Part shown: piece by piece, positions 8,501 to 26,976 of the stretch
How the letters are laid out: every line of letters begins with the position of its first letter
Position numbering within the stretch: position 1 is the stretch's first letter
DNA from: a virus
Reading direction: 5' to 3' (one strand)
DNA: 49,598 bases
Virus record (IMG/VR): IMGVR_UViG_3300010334_000086
Span: 1-49,598 of that record
Translations under genes and position numbers: made by a program
Notes under the pieces: generated by a model
Told to the model about the DNA's origin: nothing
Seen by the model: only the letters and a program-made list of their open reading frames with translations
Databases searched by the model: none

Positions 8501-10483
8501 ATCTTTTATCATGGACTCGTCATATATTAGATCTCCTATTTTATCTGATATAGGTCCAAAAATTTTAGCAGCATCTAGATAGTTTTGCATTTCTTCTGAA
8601 AACAAAGACAATTCTTTGTTAGTAGAATCTTCAGATGTAGCAGGTCTATCTTTATAGATGGCATTATAATCATTTAATATAGCTTCACCACTTTTTCTTG
8701 TAGTTTCAATTACATCAATTAAAGGCATTAAGTTATTAGTTCCTTGTATAATACGAATAGCTTTTCTGATTTCATTCATACGAGCAAACTTAAATTCTCT
8801 ATCAGTTTCATCTGTAGCTTCTTGCTTTTCCACTTGAGCTAATAAGGCATTTAGATTTGATATAACTTCATCTAAAGCTTTTTCTCCTGTAGATTCAGTT
8901 TCTTCTGATACAGGAATAAGATATAGTTCGTCAATAGGATCTAATTTAGATTTGTCCACAGAACCTATAGCAATTCCACTAAGAATAAGTTTAGAGTTTT
9001 CAACTTTAGGGTTCTGTTTAGAAAACTCCATAGAAATAGGAATAGCTCTTATCATTCCAAATTCTTTTATACCGTAGTTTTCTTTTAACATTTTTTTATA
9101 TGTACCTAATTGGATGTTAAATGCTCCTTGTTTAAACCAAGCAACATCGTCTCCTTTTATATGCATAAATTTCCAGTCTAGAATATGAGCCTTTCCTGTA
9201 TGATCAATAGCTAAAAAATCTATAGTTCCAGCTTCTTTCTCTTTCTTGTCATATATAACTACTTCTGAATATACAGCAGGGTTTTCTCCATTAGGACCCT
9301 TAAGACTTTCTATAAGATCTACATAATATGTCTCAAGTTTATCATACATTGCTTGAGATTCTAGTTTAAATTTCTTAGGTCTAGGTAATGGGTTCTCTCT
9401 TCTTGTTCCATCTGGATTGTAATACCTACTATGAATTTCTTCAAGATCAGCATGTCCTGCTATTCCATAATCTCTTTTTAGATTATTGAAAGCTTCTTCT
9501 TCTTTGGAAAATATTTTACCTGGAAATCTTTTTTTATACCATGCTTTAACTCTATCAGTAACCCTATTTACAATTCTAGCATATGTTCCATCTGGTTGTT
9601 GAATCTCATACCAGTTGTTAGCTTCTTCAGAATCTAATAATATAGCATCTGGTTTTTCATCATTGTATACTTTTTTTACAAGATTGTCCGTTTCTTCTCT
9701 TTTCTTATTGAATTCAGATTGTTCTGGTGATAGTTGATAATATATCTCTCCACTTTTAATGTCTTCTATTGTACCAGCCTCACCTGCTATTATCTTAGCT
9801 CCAGCTTCTTCAAATATATTTATATTAGATTTTCCATATATACCACTAAAGAAATCCATCATTCTATTCCACATTCTTCTAAGGAAAGATTGATTTTCTT
9901 CTAGTCTAAGTTCAGGGAATTCTGTAGATCCTTCATTCTCATATACAATAACTTCAGCTAATAGTTTACCTATAGCTTCTATTTTAATCTTACGTATATC
10001 TGGTTTACCATTAGATAATTGATAGTTCTTATTATCTTTATATTCCTCTAATGTCTTCTTATATATCTGGAACCTATCAATCTTACCTATCATTTCTGTA
10101 ACCATTTTAGGATTGGTTTGCTCTAACATACCAAAACCTAAATGCACCATTTCCTCTGTAAGAGCTACATCTTCTTTTCCTGTAGCTACAGCAATCACTC
10201 CCTTAGCAAGGTCAGCTACAGCATTAATACCCTTAGAATCAAGTCCTGTAGCTTTTGCATACGCAGCTAGTTCTTGAATATCAATTCCCATTTTCTTAGC
10301 AGCTTCTTTAATCTTTGCTATAGTTTCTGGAGAAGCTTTAGAACTTTCTGTTCCCTTTAGTTGTGCATATTCTTCTGATGGAACTTCTCCTTCATATCTA
10401 TCCCATAGATAGTAGGCTCTGTCTGTTCCAACAGATGCTTCTAATGTTTTCCAAGATTCTAAGTTTATATTAGGACATGTCAT
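5591..10483 (-). CDS. Giant virion cargo protein with PD-(D/E)XK nuclease domain
   Basis: This 1630-residue protein directly follows the giant RNA polymerase gene (1 base between stop and start). Near residue 90-120 is a zincin-like segment, LTEEMVHLGFGML, with EExxH where metallopeptidases have HExxH. Residues 400-465 hold a complete RecB/Cas4-type PD-(D/E)XK core: E407, D422 in GTIDF, D436-W-K438 in ILDWKF, and Q458/Y462 in QLGTY. The middle is charged and helical, with coiled-coil-like stretches. The C-terminal third carries WTNSMMVFKGWIPKLMDTRF (about residue 1400), of a type I know from very large internal proteins of gut and aquatic phages, and a hydrophobic helix (LASMIGVMLSLGFIAP). 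It is probably packaged and injected; the nuclease might act on host or phage DNA. Nuclease assignment is confident from motifs; injection is inference. Confidence 0.8.
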   Translation of the reverse strand: MTCPNINLESWKTLEASVGTDRAYYLWDRYEGEVPSEEYAQLKGTESSKASPETIAKIKEAAKKMGIDIQELAAYAKATGLDSKGINAVADLAKGVIAVATGKEDVALTEEMVHLGFGMLEQTNPKMVTEMIGKIDRFQIYKKTLEEYKDNKNYQLSNGKPDIRKIKIEAIGKLLAEVIVYENEGSTEFPELRLEENQSFLRRMWNRMMDFFSGIYGKSNINIFEEAGAKIIAGEAGTIEDIKSGEIYYQLSPEQSEFNKKREETDNLVKKVYNDEKPDAILLDSEEANNWYEIQQPDGTYARIVNRVTDRVKAWYKKRFPGKIFSKEEEAFNNLKRDYGIAGHADLEEIHSRYYNPDGTRRENPLPRPKKFKLESQAMYDKLETYYVDLIESLKGPNGENPAVYSEVVIYDKKEKEAGTIDFLAIDHTGKAHILDWKFMHIKGDDVAWFKQGAFNIQLGTYKKMLKENYGIKEFGMIRAIPISMEFSKQNPKVENSKLILSGIAIGSVDKSKLDPIDELYLIPVSEETESTGEKALDEVISNLNALLAQVEKQEATDETDREFKFARMNEIRKAIRIIQGTNNLMPLIDVIETTRKSGEAILNDYNAIYKDRPATSEDSTNKELSLFSEEMQNYLDAAKIFGPISDKIGDLIYDESMIKDAKTEAQKEYLANAKEIKENLEKESRDIRKTATSLTAAQLEFADKHIGQRNLVTGLTTAEAVVKGLASLFRGVSELPMASLELLTKLTRNAQGKASKESLVSVDRLMNIRKKLMERGGDIRSIVQKIYQKDDKGGIVNKLIYRYQKEFNETVDKKADEGGDKQWLLQNIDVEGYKKEADELIKTQIDRINKLQYPGSQQEVENRIDKEIQLVKDKYDIDSKNFNGWNNYVIKRHPLEKWQSKEYLDVKNDADLFELYTLINEINSEAKDSGYISGMVSKTFLPFIRKNLAEELTWNNSLTVMSKFADKISDSLKLQPGEVGYGNINQITGELENSIPKYYTYDFTYKDGVNDYSDVSEDIFKNMILYVQQLNKYKYLSEIEGQLKLVKNVEEIKGHLKTDKAGNVIRVDGIIKPEKGNEANLKIYDDFLRTLLYGQKYVLSDADTPILKGIREGINKLVGREVFKLNEEASPKSLIKTIDAVNRGFRMKALGFNIISGAVNIFGANIQVATQAGNYFKAREVAKNEKKLLSQSFNSDEDKKIFAELMNTFMPLKDDPATEEYKKAGMSKFTNLNLGDMLMVFFREPEILMEKSIFLTLLQNSIIENGKIVNIREFVKSKYKDRYSSGSNYSEIKKKMDTEVEELKRTRSIDAIKKLENGKLVIPGLDLTDQTEIQRLTNLSRTIARNATGGMSDGDKNRMALSVWTNSMMVFKGWIPKLMDTRFSEFRKVSDDFSVTIDNEGVSQGQKYDVGRIRLFGGVLMNMIHDKSFHLANILSVNDKGIAQLDKMYEEYAKKYEDSTGKKLTMTPEDFKDMIINNLRNQLKEFGILASMIGVMLSLGFIAPDDDKDKAAKNAHRFAQKVVDKFIGELSFFYNPLEIEKLLEGGMFPAIGLVSDFTKFTNNFMAEVTGEDFSSSTNTPEEVRKKAQPIKYAMKMAPVTTQLVSWLSIISSDFAKEYDVTIPAKSGIK

Positions 10484-10484
10484 G

Positions 10485-13400
10485 TTAACACTTTGATTTT
10501 ATTTGTTTACCTAATTCTGTTTGTAATTGTGCAAGGGTAGCCATTTCTGATGGACTAAGTCCTTTTGATTTCTTCTTAGCTTCTAATGCTTCTATTTCAC
10601 TCTTAACATCATCACTTACAGCTTGTGTAGGTTTAGAAGATGATATCTTTTTTCCTAATTGTTCTTCTACATGTTTACCAATTATATCTACAAACGTATT
10701 TGCTAACTGATTAGTAAGTTGAGCAAATCTTTTTTCTACAGCAACAGTTCTTCTATCAGTAGAAGATATATCACTAGTATTCATCTCTCTCAACTCTTCT
10801 GCTAAAGACCTTAAAGTATTTAATCTTTTTTTATCTTCCTCATTAATAAAATCAAATTCATTAAGATTTAAATCAGCAAGTATTTGTATATTACTAGATA
10901 CACTAATAATACTAGATTTAAAAGAATTTAATCTACCTTTAGGTCTAGGACCCTCATTAAAATCAGATGACAATACTACTTCAGCATAGCCATATTTATC
11001 TAATCTTTCCTTAAGTCCTTCTATAGGAGTCCTTTCTTCATTATTCATAACTGGTTCAGCTTCTGCCAAAGGTACAACTTTTTTTGCTGTTTTATCAATA
11101 GATTTAAAGAAAGGAACAATTGTTGCATCAGAAACTTCACCAGAAGTAAGCTTCTTCTTCTTTTTATCAAATGTTTCTTCCACCTTTATAAAGCCATTGT
11201 TTATCTTAGAAGCTTTGGCTACATTATAAAACTCATTAGCTTTGAAAGAATCACCCCAAGCATTAATCATTTTATATACAAATTGTTCTCTTATTTCTCC
11301 CTTACTATCTACATAAGAAGATATTAATGGAACTCCCTCACTTTCATAAACCTTTTGGAAAAGTCCCTTATTTATATAAGAGTAATCTCCAATTCTTTTC
11401 ATCTCTCTAATCTTTTGATCCCTGGTGATTTTATTTTTTATATCCTCTGGTGTTAATATTGAATCTTTACTCCAGGTATATACAATTACATCAGATGCTG
11501 ATTCTTTACTATACATGGATAGTGTCATCACTTGAGGAATCTTACCATCTGATATTGCACTTTTTATTTTCTTATCTAAAAATTGCATATTACCATTATA
11601 GTATCTCTCTCCTTTTGATACAAAAGATGTTGCTTTCATATTAGGAACAATGTCTGAATTATTCCAATTGTTTCTCTCAAATACTTTTAATGTTAAGAAA
11701 TCTGTCAGATTAACTTTACTTTCTATATTTGCTATTGTATCATTATACACTTCTTTGAAATCTTCATAAGGAAGCAATGATGTAAATGATATTGGAGAAT
11801 TTTCTAGTCCTGATTGTAATACAGAAAGAGCAACTAGTTCTTTGTAAATATTTGCGTCTTTTGTATCTTTTACATATTCCTTTATATCTTCAAATGCAGA
11901 AATGATTTGATTTTGGTCATAAACCTTATTGTCTTTATTTTTAATTTTAATATTATTAACTCCTCCTTCTTTTTGTGAGAAGTCTGGTTTTATTAAATTA
12001 ATAACTTGATTCTCATATAAAGCATGACTTTTATCTTTTAAAATATCTTTTACAAATGTATTAACTTTTTTTGCAATATTTGTATCCTTGTTTACTAGAT
12101 AGTCTTTTACAAATCTACTTAGAGGAAGTCCCTTTACATTATTTTCATTTGTCTGTACAGCCCAGTCAAATACATTCATTACAATTTTTTGAGCAAGCTT
12201 TACAAAATCTCTATCTGGTTCATCAATAAAATCATACAAGATTTTCTGTACCACTTGTCTCATTGGTTTTTGATCTGATACAAGTATTTCAGAATATGCA
12301 TCTCTAACATCATGTATCTTTTCTGATAAATCTCCTATGTGTGAGTTTTCAAGAAGTTCTTCTACTCCAGAAAATATTGTATTAAGTGCTTGTTTTAATT
12401 GTTCTTCTTTCTTAAATACTAAAGTTCCATCATTAAATGATGCAGTGTCAAAGTTAGTTCCTTGTGTAACTTTAAACATTTGCTCAGCCATCTTAGCATA
12501 TTTCAAAAACTCATCTAATATATAATGTTGCTCAGCAGCTTGTATTGGAGTAAACTTTTCTTGTCCAATAGATTTATAAAGACTTGTTTCTGTAGGAAGA
12601 GTTTTTATTTTATTAATATCTGCTTTAGTAGTTCCATAATCACCTTTTACAATTTCTACAAACTTATCCATAAATAAATAAGAGTACCCAGCATTTTCAA
12701 TGGTTTTTAAATAATTACGAATAATAGGTTGATTCATAAAATATCCTATTGTATCAATTGGAACTCCAACTTTAGCTAGGAACAAGAATGTACTTGCTAC
12801 ATTTGGTGTAGCACCTAATTCCATAATCCAAGCTCCTTTTGATATATCTACATATCCATCAATAAACTGTCCTATAATATCTGATATAGTTTCTCCATTT
12901 GTATTTTTAATCATAGAAAGAGTGGCTTTGCCATCAATCATATTATATGCAGGATTACCATCTTTATCTCTAAAGTTAACAATAGCATCACCTATCCATT
13001 TCTGATCTTGTGCACTTAATATTTTAATTCTATCTCTATCAATACTAATAAGTTGACGTTGGTTTAATGAATGATTTGTTTGATTTACAGCAGCAATGCC
13101 CACTGCATATTTACCTGTAACAAATGCATGTCTAACTCTTGACATGAATTCCCTATGAAGCATGTTTGATGTAGCAGTTGATTCTAATGATTCTATACCA
13201 AGTTTCTTTGTAATTTTTTCAGATAGAGTCTTTAGCTGGTCAGAAGAGTTTGGCTGAATTAATCTATCAAAATTCATTTTGTTAGAAATTAAATTTTGCA
13301 AAGATTGCACATATGCATTTTCAAGAGACTTTCTAGTATTTTGTGCATTTATAGAAAGCTTTTCAAAATCTTCTATAGGCATAAGCTCATCCTTACTAGC

Positions 13401-16400
13401 TATTTCTTGAGCAACTTCAAAACTATTTTCAGTTTTAGCATCCTCATATATATCTGCAAGACTTTTAAACTCAGGAGACAATTCTAAATTAATAGCATTT
13501 GTTAAAGCTTTCTTATTCTTACGGAATTCTGATATAGCATTTTTTCTAATTTCATCAATAATCTCTTGCTTCATCCCCATCATTCTAAGTTCCTCAGAAT
13601 AAATATTAATAAGAGATTGTAAACGGTTCAACTCTTCATCATTAATAGTAGAATCTTCAGACATTCCTACAGCAAGAGCCATGTATCTTCTAATCTCTTC
13701 AGGTCCTTTGATTTTTCTAAGACTCATTTCATTTTTCAATTGCCAGAAAGGTGCTTGAGTTTCTTCTCCTAATCTAAAGAATACAGTGTGACCCATATCA
13801 AACAACTCCTGTAAATAGTCTTCTTGTGCTGTAGTTTTTAATAATCCTTCTTCACCAACTCGAAGTTTCATTTCATCATACATCTCATTAGCACGATCTT
13901 TTCTAATGTTTTGAACCTTGGCTTTTATTTTAGAAAGCTCAATTTCAAAATTAGATTTAATATTAGCAACCATTTGCTTAGAAAGAAACTTAACATATTG
14001 TCTAGTGTCTCTGTTTGAGTTCTCTCTAACCCAATGAACATATCTTTCTTTAGCTGTAGAATTTTCTTCTGTTAAAAATTTAATAAGACTAGGCTTACCA
14101 AAACGATTAACAAATATATTTTTTAAATATATAGATAATTTATCAATATCAAAATCCGATCCAGCCTTTTTAACTAATGCTGAAGGAACTACAACAGAGT
14201 CACCAAATTCTGTAGGAAGGAATTTTTTAATTCTAAATGCATCAATAGAGTTTTGTTTTTGTGTAGGAATACGAAATGCTATTCCAGCTAATATTTCTTT
14301 TCCTTCATCTGTAGTATTCAAATATTCAAGAAGAGCCTCATCTGTCATGTCACTTTCAAACCATCTAGCAACCATAATTTCACAAACTCTTTTACCATCT
14401 TCATCTACATAAAAATCAAGAATGTCAGATTTAAATGCTTTTTTCCCACTTGCAGTTGTTACAGCAGCCATCTTATTATCTTCTAAGAAACTAGAAGAAA
14501 CCTGAACTTTAAGTCCACCAGGCATTTTAGGACGAACAACTCTACTATCTGCTATTGAATATAATATATCTCTAATTTGTCTGTATGCAGGAGTAGCTTC
14601 AATTACCACTTCTCCACTAAGAAATCCAGCTAATGAATCTTCTATATTATCATTAGTTTCTCTTTTTAAAACCTCTTCTCTTAATAATGTAGCAGATTTT
14701 TCAAAGTTAGTTATCTCAAAAGTTTTCTCACCTTTACTATTAATAGTGTAAGTGATACCCATATCTTTCAAGAGAGTGTTAAAACCATGTTGAGTTAAAG
14801 ATTTTAACAACTCATGGTTAATAGAAATTTCTTTATATAAAGGAGACTGTTCTTTCTTTTGCTCTTCAGTTAGTGCTATCCATTTTGTATACCTATCATT
14901 GTATGTAAGCTTTTCATCATCTATAGAAAAATCTATTGGAACACCAGCTTCCATAAAATCTAATGTTGCAAGCTTTGTCATCTGAGAACCTCTTGTTAAA
15001 AACGAAGCATCCTTAGAAGGAACTTCTGATTGAACACTCATTATTGAAAAAGGTACAATCACTTTTCCTTTAAATAAAGTGTCATTAAAAGAACCATCCT
15101 CATTATAAACAGAATGTTTTGTTTCAGCTCCCACCTTTCTACCACTAGCAAATATTGCATAATCAATATCTTCTTTCTGCATTTTGTTATAAAGCTTCAT
15201 AGCAGTAGTTGGAATTGCTCTACCGTTCTCATCTTTTTTTGCAAGTTTATATAAAATTCTATACGACAAAGGATAGAGAGAATACTTATCCAACATTGCA
15301 TAATTTCTTCCATCGTTGTTTAACTTACTACCTGCTACAATTGGTTTACTAGGAGTGTATGCACTTCTAATCTCAGGATTTTGTTTGTCAAATTCAGCTA
15401 GTTCTTCAACACTTGCTCCAGATTTTTCAAGAGCTTCCCAAGCCATATCATACTTGTATTGAGCTTCTTCATTTTGATTCCAGTTTCCAGAACGAAGTCT
15501 AAAGTTTTTATGAGCAGATTGTATTATCATACCCCCACCATCTCCTTCTTCATAAGGTTTTTCATTATACCCTGGAAGATCATGTATAGTCATTACATCT
15601 TCCAATGTAACTGTATCAAATGAATCTTTATTAAAATCAATATATCCAGCATCTTTTTTATCAAATCCTTCATTATATACTTTATTTGCAGTAGAATTCC
15701 AACCTGAACTACCATGTACAATTGCTTGACGAGGAGAGTTAAAGTTTTTAATACGTTTTAATTCATCAGTATATTGATAAGGATCAGCATATAATAATTT
15801 ATGAAGCTCTATATTGTTAATCATAAAATTTACATTCATCACTTTGATATACTTAGTGATGTTGGCATCATCCATTGCTTTATTTTCCACATCTTTTATA
15901 TTATTCAAAGTCCAACCGCCTTCAACAGATTGTAATATATTATATTCTTTTAATGTTTGTTTAAATGTAGCTACATCAGCATTAATGAATTTACTAACAG
16001 CTAAATCAATTGCTGTCTTGTTTGCATCATACACCTCTTGAGGAGTTCCTTTTTCTCTAATAAGTTTATTATGCAGAGTGTCTCCTAATATGTCTTTAAA
16101 GAAACGAAGATCTGTATTCTTCTTTCCTTGATCTTTTACCTTTTCTGGAATATCTCTTTTCTCTCTAGAAAGTTCTAATTCAGATTTGAAATATCCTTCA
16201 AATACACCATGTATTCTTTTATCATTTAATAAGATTTGATCAAGAGTGATCTCGTTACCCATGTACATCATCCATTCTAATGAAGCATCTCCAGGTACAA
16301 GATTATTATAATACCCTTCTAGATTTAAGTTAAGTTCTTGTATAAGTCTTTGTCTGTATTTAAGTTTAGATGAAGGTGTTTGTTTTCCTGTTTCTTGATT

Positions 16401-19400
16401 CACTGTACCATCTACCCAACCAGGTTTCATAAAACCAGCTGCTTCTTTTATTTTATCTCCTAACTTAGATTTTGCATTAAACATTCTATCTAAAAGTACA
16501 GAGTTTTTAGAAAAAGAATCTGTAAGTAAATAAGCAAATGGTGTATTTTCTAACTCCTGTTTATTTTTAGCTTGAGATAAAGCATCAAAAAGATCACTAG
16601 CAGGATTACTTCCTATAAATGATTGAGTTCTTTCTCCTTTAACATTAAAAAATGTACTAGAGAATTCAGGATTTTCTATCTTAGCTTTAACTAAAGATAG
16701 AGATAATAAACGATTCTCTATTTCTAATGTTTTACCAGAGATGGTAGTTATTTTTGCAGCCTGAGATATACTTCTTCTAAGACCAGCAACAGCATCATTA
16801 AATGTTGCACGTTCATCACCTGGTAAATTTTTAATATCTTTTTCTTTAAATTGAATTCCTAATGTTTTTAAGAAGTCAATTTTTTGAGTGATAGTAGGAA
16901 GTTCAATTCCTTTTATAGATGATGGTTTTCCTACATAAGCTTTCTCCTCTTTTGAAAATTCAAAATAAGGATTTGTATTTTGAACAACTTCAACTAATGC
17001 ATTTTTAAATTCATCTTTAATTTGTCTTGCTGCACTAGCTAAATTAGAATCTCCAACTTGAGCAGATCCATCTTCAAATATATAAACATTCTTTACATCA
17101 GGACTTTGTTTCTTAAAGGTTTTCCATAATGCACTTAAAAGATCAAGCTCATGTTTTTGTTCTATTTCAGAATAGTTGAATTTAACATTAACGTCTTTAA
17201 TTCGTGTTAAACGAGTGTATAATAATTTATAATCAGGATTAACCAAAGCTAGTTGCCTAATTCTCTCAACCATTACATCAATATCTGGAGAAGTGTATGT
17301 AACATTCATTACTTTAATAAATGCTTCACTATCAGGAACAAGTTGTACACCACCAATAGAAGAAAGTGTATTATCATTACTATTTGCTGCTTTTCTTGGA
17401 AGTGATGCTAGTAATATTTTAATAGCTGGAGACGCTTTTCTAAAAGCATCTAACTTAATAGCTTCTTGTGCAACAGTATCTTTACCATTATTATCTTCAT
17501 CAGTAAGAACAATTATATCATTCTCATCAAATTCTATAGAAAACTTTTTAAGATATTCTGCATGTTTTTCTTTTAATGCCTCCCAATTCTTATTTATATT
17601 CTGATATAAAGATTTATATTTTATAATATTGGCTGCAATTTTTTCTTTCTGTTCTTTAGTATCACTCTTTTGTTTTTGAGCTACTCCAATATTTGCAAGA
17701 ACAGTTGCATCAAGATTTGCTTTTAATCTATCATATAGTTGTTTTCCATCAATATTTTCTACATTAAAAAGATTAGTCTTTTCTGAAAATACACTACGTA
17801 TTGTTTCATAAGTCATCTGATGCATTACATCATGTACAGTTTGACTTGGAAGTTTGATACGAGCTTCATCTTCAGCAGAAGCTGTAGCATTTTCAATATC
17901 TATAATTCCTCTATTAGCAAAAGCTAACTTAGAATTATAAGGAGAATATTGTTTATAATATCCAGTTCCTATTTTTTCAAATAAGGTTTCTGTATTATTT
18001 TTTGCAGATTTTCCAGTGAAGAAAGTTTTTATTGCATTCACTAAATCAGCAAATAGTCTGAGTATAATATTCTTCTTACCCTCTTGTTTAGCTGGCATTT
18101 TTTTGTAAAGAATATAATCTCTAAACTCTTCAGCCAATTGCTCTTTAACCTCTTGTGCAGAAGCATCACTATAAGCTATAGTTTTTCCTGTAGGTCTATC
18201 TACAAAAGTTCCTTTTCTTTCATTAAACTCTTTAACTACACTAGCTTGTTCTTCTGGAGAAGAGAACATTTTCCATACAGCCTCAAACACTTCATGATAC
18301 ACTGTACCTACTTCTGTTTCTTTAGATAGATAGATTGCTCCATCTTTTAACATTCCCCATAGTTCTTTACCATTAGAGTTTGTAATAGCATTCTTCACTC
18401 TATATACAGGTAGTAATGGGAAGTATGTAGATAACCACTTTTCAACATTTGCCCAATTTTCAGGAACTATTTCTTTATCAAGAAGATTTAATTTTATTCT
18501 AGCTTCTTCTTCACTAGATTTAGTGTTTGTAGCAGCATCAATTAACTTCTGTAACTCTGGATCTATCTCAGAGGATGCAATTTCTCCACCAAGATCTTCA
18601 AGATTTCCTTCTTCATATTCTTCTCCTTCCTCATCTTCAACAGAATAAGTCATGTTAGGTGATATAACTTCTGACTCACCTTCATCTTCATTCTCATCTT
18701 CATCCTCATCATCAACAGTAAATTTCATATCAGGTGATATAATTGCTGATTCTTTATCTAACTTTTCAAATTCTGGTTTTATTAAACCTTGTATTTTGTT
18801 ACCTATATTTTTTAATATTTTTTCTCTATCAACATTATAAATAGACATTAATTGCTGAATGATTTCCTCATTGTCTTCTGCAAATTCTCCTTTTGTAAAA
18901 GTTGTAATTGTTCCTCTTGGTGTTAGTAAAAATTTAATATTTCCTACCACCTCTCCTTCTTTATTTACAAAAGGAACACTGTTTTCTGTTTTAGAATCAA
19001 ATACAAATTTGCTAGATTTAGTTGTTGTTTTTTTTGCCTCTTTAATTTCTTTTGGTCCACCAATAACAACAACTCCTTTCTTTGGACTTTTGTTTATCTT
19101 TGGCATAACAAAGGTATCTTCATCATAATCTATAGTGAAATAAATTCCTTCTCTATTAGTTTCTCCCTCTTTGATAGGTTTCATTCTTGTTGTAAGAGGA
19201 ATTTCTTCTGGCTTTCTTCCTTCTCCAGATAATAGAAATGATTGATAGTTATCCCATTCTTTTGTTTCTATTTTACCATCTTTAGATACGGAAGTTATTT
19301 GTTCGTATGGTGCATTCCAATTAAGATTTTTACCACCTTTGATTAATGTAGCGTTAGTGTTATTATACATGTTCTGTAATAACTTTACAATATCATCTTT

Positions 19401-22400
19401 GTTATCTCTCATAGATGAGGGAGTAAAAGGATAACTAGCTCCTAGTCCAGACATGAATAATTGTAATCCATTTCCAGTGTTTTCAAACCAAACACTATTA
19501 AATCCAGCATCTTTCTTTTCAAATTTACCATTAACTACAGCTCCTGGAGTTCCCCAATATATAACAGATTTTAACCAATTGGTAAGGTATTGTCCTTCAT
19601 CAGTAATTTCTCTTTTGTTATGTATAATATTAGCAAGTCTTTCTATAGCCTGTTGTATAACAGTGGCTTCACTCTTATTTAACTTTCTGTTCTCTAATTT
19701 AACAATACCATTCTCTGTATATAAAAATGTTCTACCAGAAGCATTATTAAATGTAGTAGATCCATTACTAATAGTATTTTCTGTAGTAGGAATAGTAATA
19801 ATATTTCTTCCTGTTAATTCTCCTTCAGTAATTAATCCAGCATCTTGTACAGATGTGCGAGCATCAAAATCTTGCACCTCCTCACCCTTATCATTTAATG
19901 TAGTGACATTTTGAGGAATACCAAAAGATGCAGTGATGTTATATGGAATAGGTGTTTCATTTGCTAACTCTTTAGTTCTCCATTCTTCATACTGTCTAGT
20001 TAGATCTTTTATAATGTCTTTACGATCATTATTACTTGCATCTCTGAACATACTTCCACCCTTTTTCCAACCAAGTGTTTTAGGCATCACTTGGTAAATA
20101 GAAGCATTTAAAAGTTCTTCTCCTTCAATACCTTTTGCAATTCTATTACCTTCTACATCAACAAGATACATCTCATCACCATCTTGTTCAACCATTACTA
20201 ATACAATAGTTTCTTCAGTATTAACAGCTATTGTAGTGTCACCATCATCTTTTAATTTTTGAGTGAGTCCAGATAATCCTAATTTTGCTTCATTGCCTTG
20301 ATGTACTAATACACCTCTGATATTATCTCTATTAGGAAATGAATCTAAGTTAGCACCAAATAAATTAGAACGTACATGATGAGGTGCTAAAGGTTCATCA
20401 TTTTGATTTGATGATGGGGCTTTAGATGATTTTACAACAGTCATGTCATCTTTCTTCTTCTCTGGTTCAAATACTTTATCAGAAGTGACATTCTGCATAC
20501 TACGATCTAATGTACCAATAACTGCATTAATTAATGCTGTATCTTTCTTTAGTAATTCCTCTTCAGCTTTTTGTGCTTTATACTTTTCTGCCACTGCTGC
20601 AAACTTTTGTAGTATTGCAGTTTTTCCTTGTAATTCTTTCTCAGCTTCTTTAAGTTGAGTGGTTAATTCATCTAGTTGTGTACGTAATTCATTTACTGTA
20701 CGTTCACCAGGAACCACATCAAGATCATCCACTTGAGAAATAATATCTTCTACAGTGGCTAAATCTTTTTTAAATGAAGTGTTAATCTTTAAGAAGTTTG
20801 GATTAGCTTGTAAAAAGTCTACCCAAGCTTGTCCAACAATAGCTGTAGGAGCTTTAGGATAACGTTTCTCAAACTTCTCTATAAGTTCTCTTACAAGCTC
20901 AACTGCACTTTCTAATGCTTTTTCTGTGTTATCTAAAATACTAGAAAGACCATTTATTTGTTTTCCTATTTCTTGATGTAGTATTTCTAAATCTAACACT
21001 TGATCATTAAGCTCTTCTAAGAACTCCTTACTATCTGTAGGAAGTACATCAATATTTTGAGCCATGTCAGTGATGTATTCCTGATTAAGTTCTAGAGATT
21101 CTAAATCTGCTTCTAGTTCTTGTATTTCTAAACGCAATTGTTCTTGCATTCTAGAAAGTCTATTAGCAGCTTTAATAGCTTTCATTGTGGTAGACTTAAA
21201 GTTATTTCTACCTGTAAGTTCTCCAGCTTTTATTTTATTTTCTAATGTTTGTAATTCATTAGAAATCTTTTCAAACTCTGTATATTTTTGTTGTAACAGG
21301 GCTTTACTCTTTTCTACACTTGCAGAAGTTTCTTCAAATAATTCTTCTAATATAGCAAGTCTAACTTCTCTCTTTTTATCAGCTCTTTCATCTTTTTCTA
21401 CTGAATATTCTTCAAGAGATTGTTGTTGCACAGCAGTTAATGTTCCAACATTCTTAATCATTGGATTTGCAAAACCTTGTTTAGCAACAAATTGATCTCC
21501 ACTAACCTCTAAAGTTTTTGTTTTTCCTTTATCATCTTTATAGATAAAATTTAAAATTCCTTCTTTAGGACTATATTCTAATCTTCCTGCAACTTTTTTT
21601 CCTTTTCCAAAGTTAAATTCAAATATAGTGTTAGCATTGTTCATATAGAACTTTGCTTTTTTATTCTTATTTGTATCAGATACTTTTCCTAATTTATATG
21701 TTGCTAATTCTGATTTAGATATATCTCTTTCATTACCATTAGCATCTCTAATTTTAATAGTTCCATTTTCATTTTCTCCAAGAATAGTAAGTCTAGGAAA
21801 GTATACTACATCTTTACCTTCTTTTGATTTATGTATTGTTTTTCCAAGATAGTATTCTGTACCTATTTCTAAGTCTTCTTCACCATCTTTAGTTTTAACT
21901 TTAACAGTTGTTGGTAGTTCATTTTCTTCTGTAGGTTGTTTTAATGTTTCTGCTTCTACAGCTTTATATTTCTCAGGAGTTTTAACAACTTTATTTAGTT
22001 CTTCCAAGAATGTTTTTCTACGCAAAGAAATATCCAGGTAATCAGAGAAATCATCTTTTAACTCTTGTTTAGTAACTTCATCAATATCTAGAGAATTTAT
22101 ACTTGCTACAGCTCCAGTGATGTTTGATACCACTGCTTCTTCGCGTACAGAATCTTCTAGTTTACCTTCTTGCCAAGCAGCAGATTGTTTTAAGGATTCA
22201 TTAATCCCTAATGTATCCACTCCATGTTTAGCAATATTATTACTTATTTCTATAAGTCTATTATCATAATCATTAATTTTATATGACGCATAAACCATTT
22301 TATCAATCACTTCATCGTTATATTTTCTTGATCCATCAGGATTTAATTGTCCTTGATAACGAAGTTTTGTAGACTCATACATAGAAGCAACAGCTTTTGT

Positions 22401-24299
22401 ATATGCTTCAAACTCATTTAACTTCTTTGCATAATCTTGACGAGATAGTTCCATTGGAGCACCACCACTTGCTTGAAACTTTTTATAACTTTCATCAGAC
22501 GATGATTGTAATCTACGAGCAGTGATCTCATCTTGTATCATATCAGCTCTACCATATTTAACTCTAGTAGAAATATAGTTGTGAATCTGATCAGCTTTAT
22601 TATCTAAGAATCCAAGTTTATCACCATTTTCTACAAGAGAGTCTGATTCATTCTGCAATGTTATACCTCTTTGTAAAGAGTTTGCTCTATCAGCAAAAGC
22701 ATTAGCAAATGTACTTTCTGGAACATTTAATTCAGCTAAGAAAGAATTAGTATTTGCTTTTTTATATTTTTGTTCTTGAAATTTACCTTTTGCTTGCATT
22801 AATCCTCCAGACAAACCCCCAAGAAAGAAACTTTCTCCACCTTCTTTAGTAGATATATTATCTCTTAAAACATTAAATCCAATATCACTAGCAGTAATAA
22901 ATGCATCTATATAATCTTTTCCTTCTTTTCCTTCATATGCTTTATCATAATATTTGTTTACACCTACATCAATAGATGTTTGTAAATATTCTTGTAATGC
23001 TTCTTTAGGATCAAATATATATGTTGATTCTCCTTTTAATAATTTTTTTGATAATCCTTTAGCTCCTTCATATAATTTACCTGTTAGTGTAGTTGCTTTA
23101 GCTCCTGCTGCTACAAATTTACCACCTTCATCAACAACCACTTCTCCAGCAGTTTTAAATGCATTAGATGCTGCCTTACTTGCTTTATAAGAACCTCCCA
23201 TTAAATATGGAAGCTGTGTAAATTCTGTAGCAGATAACACTGCCATATTAGCTAAGAATGATGTATTACCTACACTCTTAGACATATCATCTATTTTAGC
23301 AAGATCTTCTGCTCCTGGATCATATCCCCATTTATTTTTAAATTCTTCTATTTTTCTATCACGAAATGCACCAGCTGTACCAATAGATTCAAAAGAAGCT
23401 TCACCTGCTGATGAATATAATGCCATTATAGATTTTCTAGTAAAATCTTGTGCTCCTTCTATACCAAGAAATTGATTAGAAATTTTTAACATTTTAGCAC
23501 TTGCTTCTTCAGCATCTGCTACTGTCTTAATTCCTTTTCGTAAAACTTCTGCTGCTTCTATATTCTTACCTTGAGAGAATAATCTAGCAGTGTATTTATT
23601 TACATCAGAAAAAGTTTTCCAAGCTTCTGTATATTTACCAACATTACTAAATGCTGCACCTAATCCTTTACCTGCAATTCCTATTCCTTTTGCTGCAAGA
23701 TTACCTCCATATATTGCACCTACAGCAAATCCTGCATTTTTAATTAATTTATCAAATAAAAAGTTAGCAGTAAATAAGTTGTCTGGAGAATACCAAGATG
23801 CATTAGTTTCTTGATTTGAATAATAGTTTGGAAGATATTTATTATCTATCTCTTTATTGATTTCATCTAGTTGTTCAGAAACCTCATTATTCCAAACATC
23901 TGAAAGTTTTCCAGATCCCATTGCTTTACCTATTCCATATATAGTACCTAGACCTCCAACAAATGTAGTTGCTGCAAGAGCTACACCTTTTGTTATACCA
24001 TTAGCAGCTTTATCTAAAATACCTTGATTTCTACCATGGATATCTTCATTATCAGCATCATATATAACTTTATCATATCTTCCTGAAAGCATACCATCTA
24101 CATCAGATTGAAATACAGTAGATTGACTTGCTCCTGTATCAACAGGAACTCTTGCAAATAAAGATTCTAGTGTATCCTTAGATTGTCTATATGCATCATT
24201 ACCCCTTAAAGGAAGAGGACCAGATGGATTACGGTCATCCATTATAACTTTAGGTGCTGATGGACCAGATAAGTTTACAGGTAGTAATTCTTCAGGCAT
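10485..24299 (-). CDS. Giant (4604-residue) virion RNA polymerase polyprotein, crAss-like
   Basis: DNA-dependent RNA polymerase of the two-barrel type in one chain. The second barrel has FRIPTQ (3342-3347) and GSDFDID (D3382, D3384, D3386), aligning with the RNAP beta-prime blocks RAPTLHR and NADFDGD and with DFDID of phi14:2 gp66. The first barrel precedes it, with candidate NTP-contact lysines in FASGRKVG (K3055) and GSQMTK (K3109), the order seen in single-chain relatives. Upstream are Gly/Ala-rich hydrophobic segments (about 90-115 and 185-220), possibly membrane-active during ejection, a long coiled-coil region (about 960-1240), an acidic linker (about 1850-1900) and a zincin-like HEVFE (H2002-E2006) with LAEEF downstream. 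About 1200 residues follow the active site. At roughly twice the length of phi14:2 gp66, it probably fuses cargo, protease-like and polymerase parts. It is likely packaged and injected to transcribe early genes. Starts 4 bases after the 890-residue gene. Confidence 0.9.
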   Translation of the reverse strand: MPEELLPVNLSGPSAPKVIMDDRNPSGPLPLRGNDAYRQSKDTLESLFARVPVDTGASQSTVFQSDVDGMLSGRYDKVIYDADNEDIHGRNQGILDKAANGITKGVALAATTFVGGLGTIYGIGKAMGSGKLSDVWNNEVSEQLDEINKEIDNKYLPNYYSNQETNASWYSPDNLFTANFLFDKLIKNAGFAVGAIYGGNLAAKGIGIAGKGLGAAFSNVGKYTEAWKTFSDVNKYTARLFSQGKNIEAAEVLRKGIKTVADAEEASAKMLKISNQFLGIEGAQDFTRKSIMALYSSAGEASFESIGTAGAFRDRKIEEFKNKWGYDPGAEDLAKIDDMSKSVGNTSFLANMAVLSATEFTQLPYLMGGSYKASKAASNAFKTAGEVVVDEGGKFVAAGAKATTLTGKLYEGAKGLSKKLLKGESTYIFDPKEALQEYLQTSIDVGVNKYYDKAYEGKEGKDYIDAFITASDIGFNVLRDNISTKEGGESFFLGGLSGGLMQAKGKFQEQKYKKANTNSFLAELNVPESTFANAFADRANSLQRGITLQNESDSLVENGDKLGFLDNKADQIHNYISTRVKYGRADMIQDEITARRLQSSSDESYKKFQASGGAPMELSRQDYAKKLNEFEAYTKAVASMYESTKLRYQGQLNPDGSRKYNDEVIDKMVYASYKINDYDNRLIEISNNIAKHGVDTLGINESLKQSAAWQEGKLEDSVREEAVVSNITGAVASINSLDIDEVTKQELKDDFSDYLDISLRRKTFLEELNKVVKTPEKYKAVEAETLKQPTEENELPTTVKVKTKDGEEDLEIGTEYYLGKTIHKSKEGKDVVYFPRLTILGENENGTIKIRDANGNERDISKSELATYKLGKVSDTNKNKKAKFYMNNANTIFEFNFGKGKKVAGRLEYSPKEGILNFIYKDDKGKTKTLEVSGDQFVAKQGFANPMIKNVGTLTAVQQQSLEEYSVEKDERADKKREVRLAILEELFEETSASVEKSKALLQQKYTEFEKISNELQTLENKIKAGELTGRNNFKSTTMKAIKAANRLSRMQEQLRLEIQELEADLESLELNQEYITDMAQNIDVLPTDSKEFLEELNDQVLDLEILHQEIGKQINGLSSILDNTEKALESAVELVRELIEKFEKRYPKAPTAIVGQAWVDFLQANPNFLKINTSFKKDLATVEDIISQVDDLDVVPGERTVNELRTQLDELTTQLKEAEKELQGKTAILQKFAAVAEKYKAQKAEEELLKKDTALINAVIGTLDRSMQNVTSDKVFEPEKKKDDMTVVKSSKAPSSNQNDEPLAPHHVRSNLFGANLDSFPNRDNIRGVLVHQGNEAKLGLSGLTQKLKDDGDTTIAVNTEETIVLVMVEQDGDEMYLVDVEGNRIAKGIEGEELLNASIYQVMPKTLGWKKGGSMFRDASNNDRKDIIKDLTRQYEEWRTKELANETPIPYNITASFGIPQNVTTLNDKGEEVQDFDARTSVQDAGLITEGELTGRNIITIPTTENTISNGSTTFNNASGRTFLYTENGIVKLENRKLNKSEATVIQQAIERLANIIHNKREITDEGQYLTNWLKSVIYWGTPGAVVNGKFEKKDAGFNSVWFENTGNGLQLFMSGLGASYPFTPSSMRDNKDDIVKLLQNMYNNTNATLIKGGKNLNWNAPYEQITSVSKDGKIETKEWDNYQSFLLSGEGRKPEEIPLTTRMKPIKEGETNREGIYFTIDYDEDTFVMPKINKSPKKGVVVIGGPKEIKEAKKTTTKSSKFVFDSKTENSVPFVNKEGEVVGNIKFLLTPRGTITTFTKGEFAEDNEEIIQQLMSIYNVDREKILKNIGNKIQGLIKPEFEKLDKESAIISPDMKFTVDDEDEDENEDEGESEVISPNMTYSVEDEEGEEYEEGNLEDLGGEIASSEIDPELQKLIDAATNTKSSEEEARIKLNLLDKEIVPENWANVEKWLSTYFPLLPVYRVKNAITNSNGKELWGMLKDGAIYLSKETEVGTVYHEVFEAVWKMFSSPEEQASVVKEFNERKGTFVDRPTGKTIAYSDASAQEVKEQLAEEFRDYILYKKMPAKQEGKKNIILRLFADLVNAIKTFFTGKSAKNNTETLFEKIGTGYYKQYSPYNSKLAFANRGIIDIENATASAEDEARIKLPSQTVHDVMHQMTYETIRSVFSEKTNLFNVENIDGKQLYDRLKANLDATVLANIGVAQKQKSDTKEQKEKIAANIIKYKSLYQNINKNWEALKEKHAEYLKKFSIEFDENDIIVLTDEDNNGKDTVAQEAIKLDAFRKASPAIKILLASLPRKAANSNDNTLSSIGGVQLVPDSEAFIKVMNVTYTSPDIDVMVERIRQLALVNPDYKLLYTRLTRIKDVNVKFNYSEIEQKHELDLLSALWKTFKKQSPDVKNVYIFEDGSAQVGDSNLASAARQIKDEFKNALVEVVQNTNPYFEFSKEEKAYVGKPSSIKGIELPTITQKIDFLKTLGIQFKEKDIKNLPGDERATFNDAVAGLRRSISQAAKITTISGKTLEIENRLLSLSLVKAKIENPEFSSTFFNVKGERTQSFIGSNPASDLFDALSQAKNKQELENTPFAYLLTDSFSKNSVLLDRMFNAKSKLGDKIKEAAGFMKPGWVDGTVNQETGKQTPSSKLKYRQRLIQELNLNLEGYYNNLVPGDASLEWMMYMGNEITLDQILLNDKRIHGVFEGYFKSELELSREKRDIPEKVKDQGKKNTDLRFFKDILGDTLHNKLIREKGTPQEVYDANKTAIDLAVSKFINADVATFKQTLKEYNILQSVEGGWTLNNIKDVENKAMDDANITKYIKVMNVNFMINNIELHKLLYADPYQYTDELKRIKNFNSPRQAIVHGSSGWNSTANKVYNEGFDKKDAGYIDFNKDSFDTVTLEDVMTIHDLPGYNEKPYEEGDGGGMIIQSAHKNFRLRSGNWNQNEEAQYKYDMAWEALEKSGASVEELAEFDKQNPEIRSAYTPSKPIVAGSKLNNDGRNYAMLDKYSLYPLSYRILYKLAKKDENGRAIPTTAMKLYNKMQKEDIDYAIFASGRKVGAETKHSVYNEDGSFNDTLFKGKVIVPFSIMSVQSEVPSKDASFLTRGSQMTKLATLDFMEAGVPIDFSIDDEKLTYNDRYTKWIALTEEQKKEQSPLYKEISINHELLKSLTQHGFNTLLKDMGITYTINSKGEKTFEITNFEKSATLLREEVLKRETNDNIEDSLAGFLSGEVVIEATPAYRQIRDILYSIADSRVVRPKMPGGLKVQVSSSFLEDNKMAAVTTASGKKAFKSDILDFYVDEDGKRVCEIMVARWFESDMTDEALLEYLNTTDEGKEILAGIAFRIPTQKQNSIDAFRIKKFLPTEFGDSVVVPSALVKKAGSDFDIDKLSIYLKNIFVNRFGKPSLIKFLTEENSTAKERYVHWVRENSNRDTRQYVKFLSKQMVANIKSNFEIELSKIKAKVQNIRKDRANEMYDEMKLRVGEEGLLKTTAQEDYLQELFDMGHTVFFRLGEETQAPFWQLKNEMSLRKIKGPEEIRRYMALAVGMSEDSTINDEELNRLQSLINIYSEELRMMGMKQEIIDEIRKNAISEFRKNKKALTNAINLELSPEFKSLADIYEDAKTENSFEVAQEIASKDELMPIEDFEKLSINAQNTRKSLENAYVQSLQNLISNKMNFDRLIQPNSSDQLKTLSEKITKKLGIESLESTATSNMLHREFMSRVRHAFVTGKYAVGIAAVNQTNHSLNQRQLISIDRDRIKILSAQDQKWIGDAIVNFRDKDGNPAYNMIDGKATLSMIKNTNGETISDIIGQFIDGYVDISKGAWIMELGATPNVASTFLFLAKVGVPIDTIGYFMNQPIIRNYLKTIENAGYSYLFMDKFVEIVKGDYGTTKADINKIKTLPTETSLYKSIGQEKFTPIQAAEQHYILDEFLKYAKMAEQMFKVTQGTNFDTASFNDGTLVFKKEEQLKQALNTIFSGVEELLENSHIGDLSEKIHDVRDAYSEILVSDQKPMRQVVQKILYDFIDEPDRDFVKLAQKIVMNVFDWAVQTNENNVKGLPLSRFVKDYLVNKDTNIAKKVNTFVKDILKDKSHALYENQVINLIKPDFSQKEGGVNNIKIKNKDNKVYDQNQIISAFEDIKEYVKDTKDANIYKELVALSVLQSGLENSPISFTSLLPYEDFKEVYNDTIANIESKVNLTDFLTLKVFERNNWNNSDIVPNMKATSFVSKGERYYNGNMQFLDKKIKSAISDGKIPQVMTLSMYSKESASDVIVYTWSKDSILTPEDIKNKITRDQKIREMKRIGDYSYINKGLFQKVYESEGVPLISSYVDSKGEIREQFVYKMINAWGDSFKANEFYNVAKASKINNGFIKVEETFDKKKKKLTSGEVSDATIVPFFKSIDKTAKKVVPLAEAEPVMNNEERTPIEGLKERLDKYGYAEVVLSSDFNEGPRPKGRLNSFKSSIISVSSNIQILADLNLNEFDFINEEDKKRLNTLRSLAEELREMNTSDISSTDRRTVAVEKRFAQLTNQLANTFVDIIGKHVEEQLGKKISSSKPTQAVSDDVKSEIEALEAKKKSKGLSPSEMATLAQLQTELGKQIKSKC

Positions 24300-24303
24300 A
24301 TTG

Positions 24304-26976
24304 TTATTTTGATTTTTTTAATTTTTCTAATCCGTTTTTTATCATTCCTGGAGTTATATTAGGAATTTGTCTTTCCAATGCGTTATAATCAGTAAAATAT
24401 AAACCTGCTTCATTTTTTGGAACAAGTTCTATCAGTTGATAATCTTTCATTGTTTTATCTTTTGCATAAATCTGTAAAGATAATCCTACACCAGGAACAG
24501 GTTGTATATCAGCTTTAGCTGTGTAATCTGTTCCATTAAGACTTTCAAATCTACCACTATCTATAGCAGCACTTTGATAAGCATTGGGATCTGTTACATA
24601 AGTTCCTAAATTTGTAGAGCCATAATCACTGTAATTTGCTCTTGCTCTTAAACCATCTTCTACATATGCATTAAATTTTCTTCCTGTTATAATTTCTAAA
24701 TTTGCTTGATTAACATCAGCAGAATGTGTTTTACCATTTGTATCTGTTATAAAAATAGTTCCAGTCCAAGGTTGTCCTTCTGCTATAGGTCTACGTGCAT
24801 CATATGTAATCATTCCTCCTCCAGGTGCAGCTAATATTTTTTTAATTTCTACCTGATCTTCTTCTTTAATTCTAGAAACATTAAACAATGGAGCAATACG
24901 TGCTTTTGCTTCTTTTAATTCATCATCACCTCCCATTAATGTGCTTGAGAAATTATCTGATACAACATTAACTTTTTTGAATTTTTCTCCCAATAATTTT
25001 TGTGCTTTTTGAAAATTTTTGTCAGTTCCTAATGCTTGATATTGTCTGTAATTAAATCCATTATCTTTAAATAAATTAAACATATCAGAATTAGAACCAA
25101 ATTTTTCACGTAATCTTTTTTCAGCAGCATCACTTCTTGCACCAGAATTTTCCCAAAGTATTCCAAGATCTACTTTATCTTCAGGAGTAATTGCAACCAT
25201 TTCATTTCTACGATTTTTTAAATATTCTGTTGAGTATTGCTTTTGAACTTTTTTAATATCATATCCAGTCTCTCTTTTTACATCATCATAAATTTGTTCT
25301 GTAACAGCAAGTCTATTAATAACATCATGATTTAACTTATTCATATTATTAATAAGAGCCTTATCTGCTGCACTCAAAGGGATATTCTGACTTTCTGATT
25401 TGTTTTTAATATCTCCTGCAAATCTAGTGATATATCCATACTCTGTTTCTCCATTAGCTTTTGCGTATGTTTGAATAGCTATTTTTGTATCTTCTCTACT
25501 ATACGGTTTACCATTCTTATTAACTCCACCACTTAATTTATTCAGATATGTATGAATTAATTCAATTCCTTGTGCTTGTGCTTTTACTTGTAAACCTGAC
25601 GTTCCTTCAGAATAACTAGATATAGCATCAATAGGTGCTCCTGGATTTTCAGAATTAATTTCAGAATTAGTTGTTGTATTTACAGCTAATCTCTTTTTTC
25701 CAGCAGCAGTAGTATCTAGTTTTGTACGTAATCCAGTTACTGGATCTATTGGAAATTCTACGTCAAATTGTGCAGCATCTCTTTTATTCTTTTCTTCTGC
25801 TATACGATTTGCTGCCCAACCTCTAGCAGATGCATCTCTTTGCATTACTCTGTTAAAATTTTCTTTATTTTGATCAAAAGCAAAATTCTCTTCCCAGTTA
25901 ATTTGCTTTCTTAAAGGGCTTTCTTTATTTTCTTTTTTAACTTTATTAGTAGCAAGACTTAATAAATTATTTTTATAGTTATCTTCGTAATACTCTTGTT
26001 TAAATTGTTCAGGACTTTCAGTTGCCTGTTTTCTTAATCCTTGTAATTTTTGATCATTACTCTGTATTGTTCTTTTTATGTTATTTTGTTCATTGATGAT
26101 TGCTTGTTTTTGATCAACAGTCAAACTATTAGAATCTGCAAATGCTTGTAATTGTAACAGTCTTTGAGTACATTCAGCGTCTCTTACATTAAAGTCATTC
26201 TCAAATGTACGATATACAGATTCAACAGGTATATATCTTGTATTAGCCCAACCATCTATTTTAATTTGTTGCTGAACACTTCCTTGACTAAGAAGATTTT
26301 CAACTATTGCTTTAACTTTTGGAGCATTTGTTTCTACATCTTCAGTAACCATATATTTAGAAGGAATAGGATGACCATCTTGACCTATTACTAATTTACC
26401 TCTTGCATCAGTCTCATATAAATTTTCAATATGTGTAGCATCTAATCCAGCATCTTTAATACTATCTCTGACAAGTTTCATTACATCAATATGTTCCATA
26501 TATGATCCAGAAAATGACTCTCCTACTTTTGAACTTGTCAACCATTTATTTGCATCATTTAAGAAATATTCTTCATTATTCTTATCAGACTTGCCTGCTT
26601 TTCTAGCAGCTTCCATATCCTTCACTTGTTTTCTATAATTTGCAGTGGCACTCACAGCATTTTGAATGGTTGGATCTTTAATAATTTGAGAAGCCATACC
26701 TCCAACAGAGTTAACTAATTGAAAATTAGAAAAGTCTGAGGCTGCCACCTTCTTTAAATCTGATCCTAGTTGGTTAAGTTTTGATTGTAAATTAGCTCTA
26801 TCAACATCTTTTATAATATCCATACCAGCAACATTATCTATTTGCCCCTGGATTTTTTGTATTCCTTGGTCATACTTAGCCTGTCTTTCCATGCCCACTT
26901 TGGACATCTCCTCTATAACAGGGAGCTGGGAAACGTAAGGATTAAAGGTTGATATTGCGTCTGTAAATGAAGCCAT
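24304..26976 (-). CDS. Internal virion (cargo) protein upstream of the RNA polymerase
   Basis: This 890-residue protein is mostly helical and charged, without an enzyme motif I can recognise. Its first 70 residues (FNPYVSQLPVIEEM, AKYDQGIQKIQGQIDNVAG) follow a pattern I associate with cargo proteins encoded just before the virion RNA polymerase in crAss-like phages. The C-terminal quarter turns to beta-type sequence. It is the first gene after the 27.0 kb promoter, with a 16-base leader and no Shine-Dalgarno, and is followed after 4 bases by the giant polymerase, so the two are probably made and packaged together. A role as capsid cargo or ejection protein is inferred from place and N-terminal pattern. 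Confidence 0.75.
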   Translation of the reverse strand: MASFTDAISTFNPYVSQLPVIEEMSKVGMERQAKYDQGIQKIQGQIDNVAGMDIIKDVDRANLQSKLNQLGSDLKKVAASDFSNFQLVNSVGGMASQIIKDPTIQNAVSATANYRKQVKDMEAARKAGKSDKNNEEYFLNDANKWLTSSKVGESFSGSYMEHIDVMKLVRDSIKDAGLDATHIENLYETDARGKLVIGQDGHPIPSKYMVTEDVETNAPKVKAIVENLLSQGSVQQQIKIDGWANTRYIPVESVYRTFENDFNVRDAECTQRLLQLQAFADSNSLTVDQKQAIINEQNNIKRTIQSNDQKLQGLRKQATESPEQFKQEYYEDNYKNNLLSLATNKVKKENKESPLRKQINWEENFAFDQNKENFNRVMQRDASARGWAANRIAEEKNKRDAAQFDVEFPIDPVTGLRTKLDTTAAGKKRLAVNTTTNSEINSENPGAPIDAISSYSEGTSGLQVKAQAQGIELIHTYLNKLSGGVNKNGKPYSREDTKIAIQTYAKANGETEYGYITRFAGDIKNKSESQNIPLSAADKALINNMNKLNHDVINRLAVTEQIYDDVKRETGYDIKKVQKQYSTEYLKNRRNEMVAITPEDKVDLGILWENSGARSDAAEKRLREKFGSNSDMFNLFKDNGFNYRQYQALGTDKNFQKAQKLLGEKFKKVNVVSDNFSSTLMGGDDELKEAKARIAPLFNVSRIKEEDQVEIKKILAAPGGGMITYDARRPIAEGQPWTGTIFITDTNGKTHSADVNQANLEIITGRKFNAYVEDGLRARANYSDYGSTNLGTYVTDPNAYQSAAIDSGRFESLNGTDYTAKADIQPVPGVGLSLQIYAKDKTMKDYQLIELVPKNEAGLYFTDYNALERQIPNITPGMIKNGLEKLKKSK

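Follow-up and report, generated by a model that had tools for sequence, protein, structure and literature searches.

The locus raises two questions: what kind of protein is encoded by a single ORF of 4604 codons, and, if this protein travels in the virion, how would such a giant chain leave it together with its neighbours? The window, i.e., the whole stretch of DNA that was analysed, is a virus contig of 49.6 kb. The ORF runs uninterrupted from its ATG, as the original prediction had it, but on the minus strand; the plus-strand frame across the same positions is full of stops. It is not a chance ORF, since tblastn finds matches to crAss-like virion RNA polymerases (vRNAPs) and the same single ORF is present in relatives, the first four of which share 52-55% identity with it. 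The ORF and its parts are:

10485..24299, minus strand: virion RNA polymerase ORF, 4604 aa, gp47-like leader followed by a gp50/gp66-like catalytic RNAP
18900..24299, minus strand: leader part, residues 1-1800, hydrophobic near 100-200 (HMM E 1e-60 to 1e-16, alignment)
18480..18899, minus strand: acidic, poorly conserved linker, residues 1801-1940 (identity 11-16%, occupancy down to 50%)
17895..18467, minus strand: zincin-like part, residues 1945-2135, counterpart of the crAss001 gp47 C-terminal region (HMM E 1.8e-15 to gp47 2087-2293)
18282..18296, minus strand: HEVFE, residues 2002-2006, an altered HExxH
11160..17852, minus strand: RNA polymerase part, residues 2150-4380, homologous to phi14:2 gp66 and crAss001 gp50 (tblastn, HMM, AF2/Foldseek)
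15135..15137, minus strand: codon of K3055, counterpart of gp66 K1065 by alignment
14973..14975, minus strand: codon of K3109, counterpart of gp66 K1119 by alignment
14259..14276, minus strand: FRIPTQ, residues 3342-3347
14142..14156, minus strand: DFDID, residues 3382-3386, metal-binding loop of the beta-prime-like barrel
13335..14042, minus strand: insertion after DFDID, residues 3420-3655, mostly missing in relatives (occupancy 28-50%)

The C-terminal 2000 residues match crAss-like RNAPs in tblastn, including phi14:2 gp66 and crAss002. Clade HMMs were built from 37 relatives of the giant ORF; the one for the core detects gp66 and gp50 as well as most of the remaining crAss RNAPs sampled. 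The proposed likeness to gp66 is also borne out by structure prediction: when residues 2900-3960 are modelled with AlphaFold2 (pLDDT 76, pTM 0.69), the sole significant PDB match in Foldseek is 6VR4, i.e., phi14:2 gp66 (E=1.4e-18, prob 1.00, TMq 0.49). Judged from this overall model match, the predicted fold is that of a gp66-type RNAP with two double-psi barrels. The motifs claimed earlier (K3055, K3109, FRIPTQ, and DFDID) are all found at their residues. K3055 (GRKVGA) aligns with gp66 K1065 (GVKVGA) and K3109 (GSQMTK) with K1119 (GSQIQK), the spacing being 54 residues in both proteins. In the 37 relatives, K3109 and DFDID, a DxDxD metal-binding loop, are invariant, and K3055 is at least 90% conserved. 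By alignment to gp66, the two residues are the conserved barrel lysines, with a putative catalytic role. K3258/K3264, weighed as another possible pair of barrel lysines, were rejected, as K3264 is not conserved in gp66.

The N-terminal 2100 residues match annotated RNA-polymerase subunits in tblastn, including that of crAss001. The HMM of the leader homology region (residues about 100-800) matches crAss001 gp47 (E 1e-60), phi17:2 gp39, and Lbo-JY46 XAI97382, as well as csAssE-Sib WOZ57301 and phi14:2 gp67. According to the clade HMMs, the first ~2130 residues thus correspond to a gp47-like cargo protein, within which the acidic and variable stretch foreseen at about 1800-1940 is indeed present. 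Searches of the giant protein with Pfam, PHROGs, and phmmer against the PDB bring up nothing useful; its homology is established only by tblastn, the clade HMMs, and comparison of folds. Homology and fold show the ORF to be a crAss-like virion RNA polymerase combining a gp47-type leader (HMM) and a gp50/gp66-type polymerase (6VR4 match) in one polypeptide, as anticipated in the suggestion of a polymerase fused with other cargo. No relative of the giant ORF is found in the searched genome contigs, and hence no host link is available.

The zincin-like part had been named as such in the original prediction. It is zincin-derived as judged by alignment, but its HExxH motif is altered to HEVFE in the window. 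The site reads HExxE in 26/37 clade members and HExxH in 11/37; HExxH is also present in crAss001, cr108_1, Dulem 41, and cr50_1. An AEEFRDY stretch downstream stays conserved despite the change to HExxE in those 26 members. The AF2 model of this part (pLDDT 75, pTM 0.49) has no PDB match at E <0.001. The position of the zincin-like part, exactly between leader and polymerase as in crAss001 gp47, and the HExxH domain of N4 vRNAP (PMC12633501) could suggest that the 4604-aa chain is processed as a polyprotein, with cleavage near this point yielding gp47-like and gp50-like products and the fusion then being restricted to the gene level. However, the window and most of the clade have HExxE at this site, no cleavage motif has been identified, and the zincin part remains with gp47 in relatives where the genes are split. 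Given the HExxE motif and the lack of a fold match, cleavage is a minor alternative with a slim chance of being right.

The giant ORF is flanked by the following genes:

5591..10483, minus strand: gp49/gp65-like protein, 1630 aa, third member of the proposed chain (clade HMM)
24304..26976, minus strand: 890-aa protein at the cargo C2 (gp46) position, without terminal Cys
34549..39252, minus strand: muzzle protein, marking the crAss-like virion module (PF25731 crAss_MUZ, 120 bits, cut-off 27)
39236..40207, minus strand: tail ring protein 1 (PF24228, above cut-off)

A Crassvirales-type virion module, with muzzle and ring proteins above Pfam cut-offs, therefore adjoins the RNAP block. The muzzle is closest to those of Lbo-JY46, phi17:2/phi4:1, and csAssE-Sib. 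Leptolyngbya phage Lbo-JY46 (PP438436) is recorded from a cyanobacterium and possesses a crAss-like muzzle, a gp47-like protein, and the terminal Cys; its host assignment is worth checking. The HMM made from the window clade for the 1630-aa protein matches crAss001 gp49 and phi14:2 gp65. Part by part, the HMM matches therefore identify the ORF as gp47 joined to gp50 in a single chain, with gp49 as the next gene. Residues 401-492 of the gp49-like protein show a weak PHROG exonuclease match (E 3.6e-4), and its cr4_1 homologue is annotated as an exonuclease. In crAss001, gp47, gp50, and gp49 have been detected in virions by mass spectrometry (PMC10172136). By analogy with phi14:2 and crAss001, the product of the giant ORF would be carried in the virion and leave it either before the DNA or together with it.

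The gp47+gp50 fusion is clade-wide: a single ORF of 3755-4725 aa is found in 55/55 relatives with both gene ends visible, the search patterns for relatives being placed in the core, so that the leader was not selected for. The same fusion occurs in annotated Suoliviridae genomes, i.e., cr118_1 (4946 aa), cr50_1 (4774), cr55_1 (4551), cr4_1 (4491), and cr10_1 (4460), and in Flavobacterium phage FPSV-S29 (4419 aa). Intestiviridae display an alternative fusion, gp50 with gp49, and some IMG/VR phages harbor triple gp47+gp50+gp49 fusions of 5220-5639 aa. The triple-fusion loci L126, L128, L132, L145, L222, and L244 are Cys-free and longer than 4604 aa. These fusion states were assigned by iterated-HMM domain classification; a length-based classification was dropped as unreliable, L130, L131, and L099 being gp50 with long insertions. 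Fusions of this sort in crAss-like phages have been noted in the P23-45 paper (PMC10770324), and crAss RNAP genes of up to ~6000 aa have been reviewed (PMC10136315). The fusion as found here adds one more lineage to a design already known. The window protein is no record in length, and length was rejected as a novelty in view of the annotated 4946-aa and unannotated 5639-aa relatives. It is true that phi14:2 gp66 is half as long, but the reason is that gp67/gp47 is a separate gene in Steigviridae. The earlier observations on motifs and ORF thus hold, while the interpretation holds in part, for the fusion and not for the length.

The ends of these proteins reveal a second feature. At the junction between the giant ORF and the gp49-like gene, two Cys face each other:

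10488..10490, minus strand: C4604, final residue and proposed coupling Cys, the only other Cys of the ORF being C3306
10475..10477, minus strand: C3, the only Cys of the 1630-aa gp49-like protein and proposed partner of C4604

The 37 non-redundant clade members have a mean of two Cys per about 4350 residues, and yet 37/37 have one among their last seven residues, in a segment (the last 60 residues) only about 20% identical. The gp49-like protein of the clade has a Cys at residue 3-5 in 33/33. In phi14:2, where the members are separate, gp67 possesses only C1797 (of 1797 residues), gp66 only C3 and C2179 (of 2180), and gp65 only C3; phi17:2, Dulem 41, FPSV-S29, and Lbo-JY46 share this arrangement. 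In crAss001, the Cys are at 2339/2341 in gp47, 5 and 2404/2412 in gp50, and 5 in gp49. Additional middle pieces follow suit, with C4 and C516/517 in phi17:2 gp38 and C4 and C519 in a 525-aa piece of L012, the internal Cys pair being absent from the fused homologues of the latter (L030, L064). Intestiviridae, with gp50 and gp49 fused, retain Cys only at the ends facing the 47|50 junction. The fused RNAPs of Suoliviridae and FPSV-S29 carry a C-end Cys, and the next gene an N-terminal Cys where seen. Cys depletion is general among ejected proteins, and the pattern could be regarded as a consequence of such avoidance in an ordinary giant crAss vRNAP, with no mechanism attached. But with a Cys frequency of 0.047% in the clade, 37/37 in the last seven residues is unexpected, as is retention of the Cys in such divergent tails; the counts and tree pairs given below speak strongly against this reading as well, and we give it next to no credence.

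Two further IMG/VR scans yielded 160 loci, and the Cys test set comprises 187 non-redundant loci with domains assigned by HMM. Split 47|50 junctions display Cys at 52/54 C-ends and 51/53 N-ends, and split 50|49 junctions at 154/158 C-ends and 157/158 N-ends. The outer ends and the C2 neighbour served as controls. A Cys is found in 1/145 free gp49 C-ends, this one being a middle piece that precedes another member, in 0/55 N-ends of 47-50 fusions, in 0/13 C-ends of 50-49 fusions, and in 0/50 C-ends of the neighbouring C2 cargo. Triple fusions have zero Cys. A raw control of other large ORFs (N-end 26/128, C-end 41/171) was left unused, as it includes spurious ORFs along with chain members that had escaped detection. 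In a first HMM-based count, most of the apparent exceptions at the gp49 C-end were gp47 cross-matched on the other strand. Residual exceptions are an interrupted DFDID gene (L002), recoded stops (L072), and apparently truncated ORFs (L092, L207, L226). The gp47-like protein of L213, lacking the C-end Cys though its neighbour has the N-end Cys, is an unexplained exception. In L002 (cr108_1), about 290 bases (17449-17740) interrupt the RNAP gene inside DFDID and are probably an intron.

On the core tree, at least 8 and at least 6 changes of fusion state are counted, and Cys tracks the split state in the supported independent pairs (4-0 with one tie, and 5-0). Each trait alone stays below formal significance, as supported pairs are few, the direction being uniform. 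As a pattern, the result is strong: Cys are present at the facing ends of split members, rare or absent at outer ends, and lost on fusion.

We consider that the Crassvirales transcription machinery is probably a covalent protein train, in which Cys-poor giant proteins are disulfide-joined end to end and threaded in gene order. The proteins of the RNAP block would form one head-to-tail chain, gp47 - gp50 - gp49. Separate members would be joined by pairing the Cys close to the C-end of one with the Cys close to the N-end of the next. The leader, threaded through the narrow tail, would pull the polymerase and then gp49, and the reducing host cytoplasm would uncouple the members after entry. In fused genes, where the Cys are lost, the peptide backbone would substitute for the coupler. 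In the window, the train would consist of two polypeptides of 4604 and 1630 residues with a single coupler, C4604 to C3. A leader-RNAP fusion that replaces one coupler in such a chain is, on balance, the best explanation of the locus.

Several observations bear on this proposal. Ejected proteins, i.e., gp15/gp16 of T7, gp7/gp16/gp20 of P22, and that of N4, are almost or entirely Cys-free, and against this background two facing Cys per break look like couplers. Tail constrictions below 50 Å imply that ejected proteins need partial unfolding. Disulfides between crAss001 tail subunits have been seen by cryo-EM (PMC10172136), indicating that such bonds can form in these virions; those proposed between block proteins, which the crAss001 maps do not resolve, are deduced from Cys placement, and the order gp47-gp50-gp49 and the release by cytoplasmic reduction are likewise inferred. 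The terminal Cys persist in crAss001, where gp47 and gp50/gp49 are encoded on different strands, and in csAssE-Sib, where members are about 8 kb apart, so that no nucleotide signal explains them. A nucleotide-level cause (stop/start overlap, translational coupling) is rejected on these grounds, cr116_1 and cr128_1 being further opposite-strand cases. An intramolecular N-to-C bond in gp50 is rejected too, since one Cys per protein is the usual number in gp47 and gp49. A difficulty is that virions assemble in a reducing cytoplasm, and many hosts are anaerobic; oxidation would then have to occur later or be assisted. Furthermore, no sequence feature was found to explain why gp47 would pair with gp50 rather than with gp49, which counts against couplers, as do the L213 exception and the Cys near the C-end of Intestiviridae cargo C1, for which no partner is known.

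The Cys may also serve without linking neighbours, by forming homodimers or hexamers, binding metal, or attaching to capsid or portal, fusion then being neutral. Each protein is thought to be packaged in several copies, and a single Cys per terminus could pair with that of its own copy; moreover, as fusion removes free ends, Cys loss does not separate junctional from homotypic use. However, Cys are essentially absent from the outer ends (gp47 N-end, gp49 C-end), the inserted middle pieces all carry them at both ends, and a lone Cys per end makes a poor metal site. This reading is rather unlikely, without being negligible. Another role might be exerted at entry, the terminal Cys reacting with host periplasmic thiol-disulfide enzymes and so serving as brakes or hand-over points during the periplasmic passage of the unfolded chains. 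The absence of Cys from N4-like vRNAPs has been attributed to passage through the tail and the oxidising periplasm (PMC3715699, PMC3915230), and the T7 and P22 proteins cited above are Cys-free too. Such a role predicts neither the restriction of Cys to chain-facing ends nor their paired loss upon fusion, and appears quite improbable.

Compared with known systems, the window resembles phi14:2, where gp66 (6VR4), accompanied by gp67 and gp65, has two barrels in one chain, DFDID, and the matching lysines; the gene order after the muzzle is the same, and the phi14:2 proteins are annotated in virion proteomics. In contrast, phi14:2 has three separate proteins (1797, 2180, and 1421 aa) and two predicted couplers, whereas the window has the gp67 and gp66 equivalents fused, a single predicted coupler, and a long insertion downstream of DFDID. 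The Suoliviridae listed above and FPSV-S29 have the window's fusion (4419-4946 aa), but their sequences are very divergent, cr50_1 has an HExxH, and they are associated with the human gut or with fish-pathogen hosts. crAss001 possesses the same three components, but unfused. The N4 virion RNA polymerase (Schitoviridae) is a T7-like single-subunit polymerase. It is also a giant, ejected, Cys-free chain with an HExxH domain, but no N4-type vRNAP is among the tblastn and Foldseek matches listed for the window. The tape-measure-fused vRNAP of P23-45 (5002 aa, PMC10770324) likewise joins a two-barrel RNAP to a giant virion protein, larger than that of the window; its RNAP occupies the N-end of the tape measure of a siphophage, whereas that of the window comes after the crAss leader.

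The terminal-Cys rule matters more than the fused polymerase. It addresses the ordered ejection of giant proteins through a tail too narrow for them in the folded state, and makes this a yes/no question that can be put to existing virions, possibly to existing mass-spectrometry data. For crAss001, the facing tryptic ends CNS and CITTNSTIEELAAK of gp47-gp50 would give a computed disulfide-linked mass of 1812.8233 Da, and ICGANTLYEL and CAIIPQVR of gp50-gp49 one of 1992.0172 Da. If true, coupling would explain the avoidance of Cys elsewhere in these proteins, the free re-splitting and re-fusing of the RNAP block, and the role of the accessory giants gp47 and gp49. No mention of the rule was found in the literature searched; the primary phi14:2 RNAP paper and the first crAss genomics papers, outside that scope, may mention it.

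Applied to annotation, the rule further puts start codons right and picks out members of the chain that have diverged too far to be annotated. The annotated start of L073 (crAss002 gp33) is apparently 32 codons too far upstream, its cr107_1 homologue beginning with MSC. Cargo C1 of Intestiviridae (L082, L083, L073) carries a Cys 7-10 residues before its C-end, and this Cys has no obvious partner. In csAssE-Sib (L077), WOZ57322 and WOZ57323 resemble one frameshifted gp49-like gene, the first piece starting with MTSTC, the expected N-end Cys. Finally, the window proteins at 3-5207 and 5230-5511 (both minus strand) start with a three-Cys motif (C5, C10, C18 and C7, C10, C18, respectively) that recurs downstream of the gp49-like gene across the clade, and is perhaps a tail-fibre anchor.
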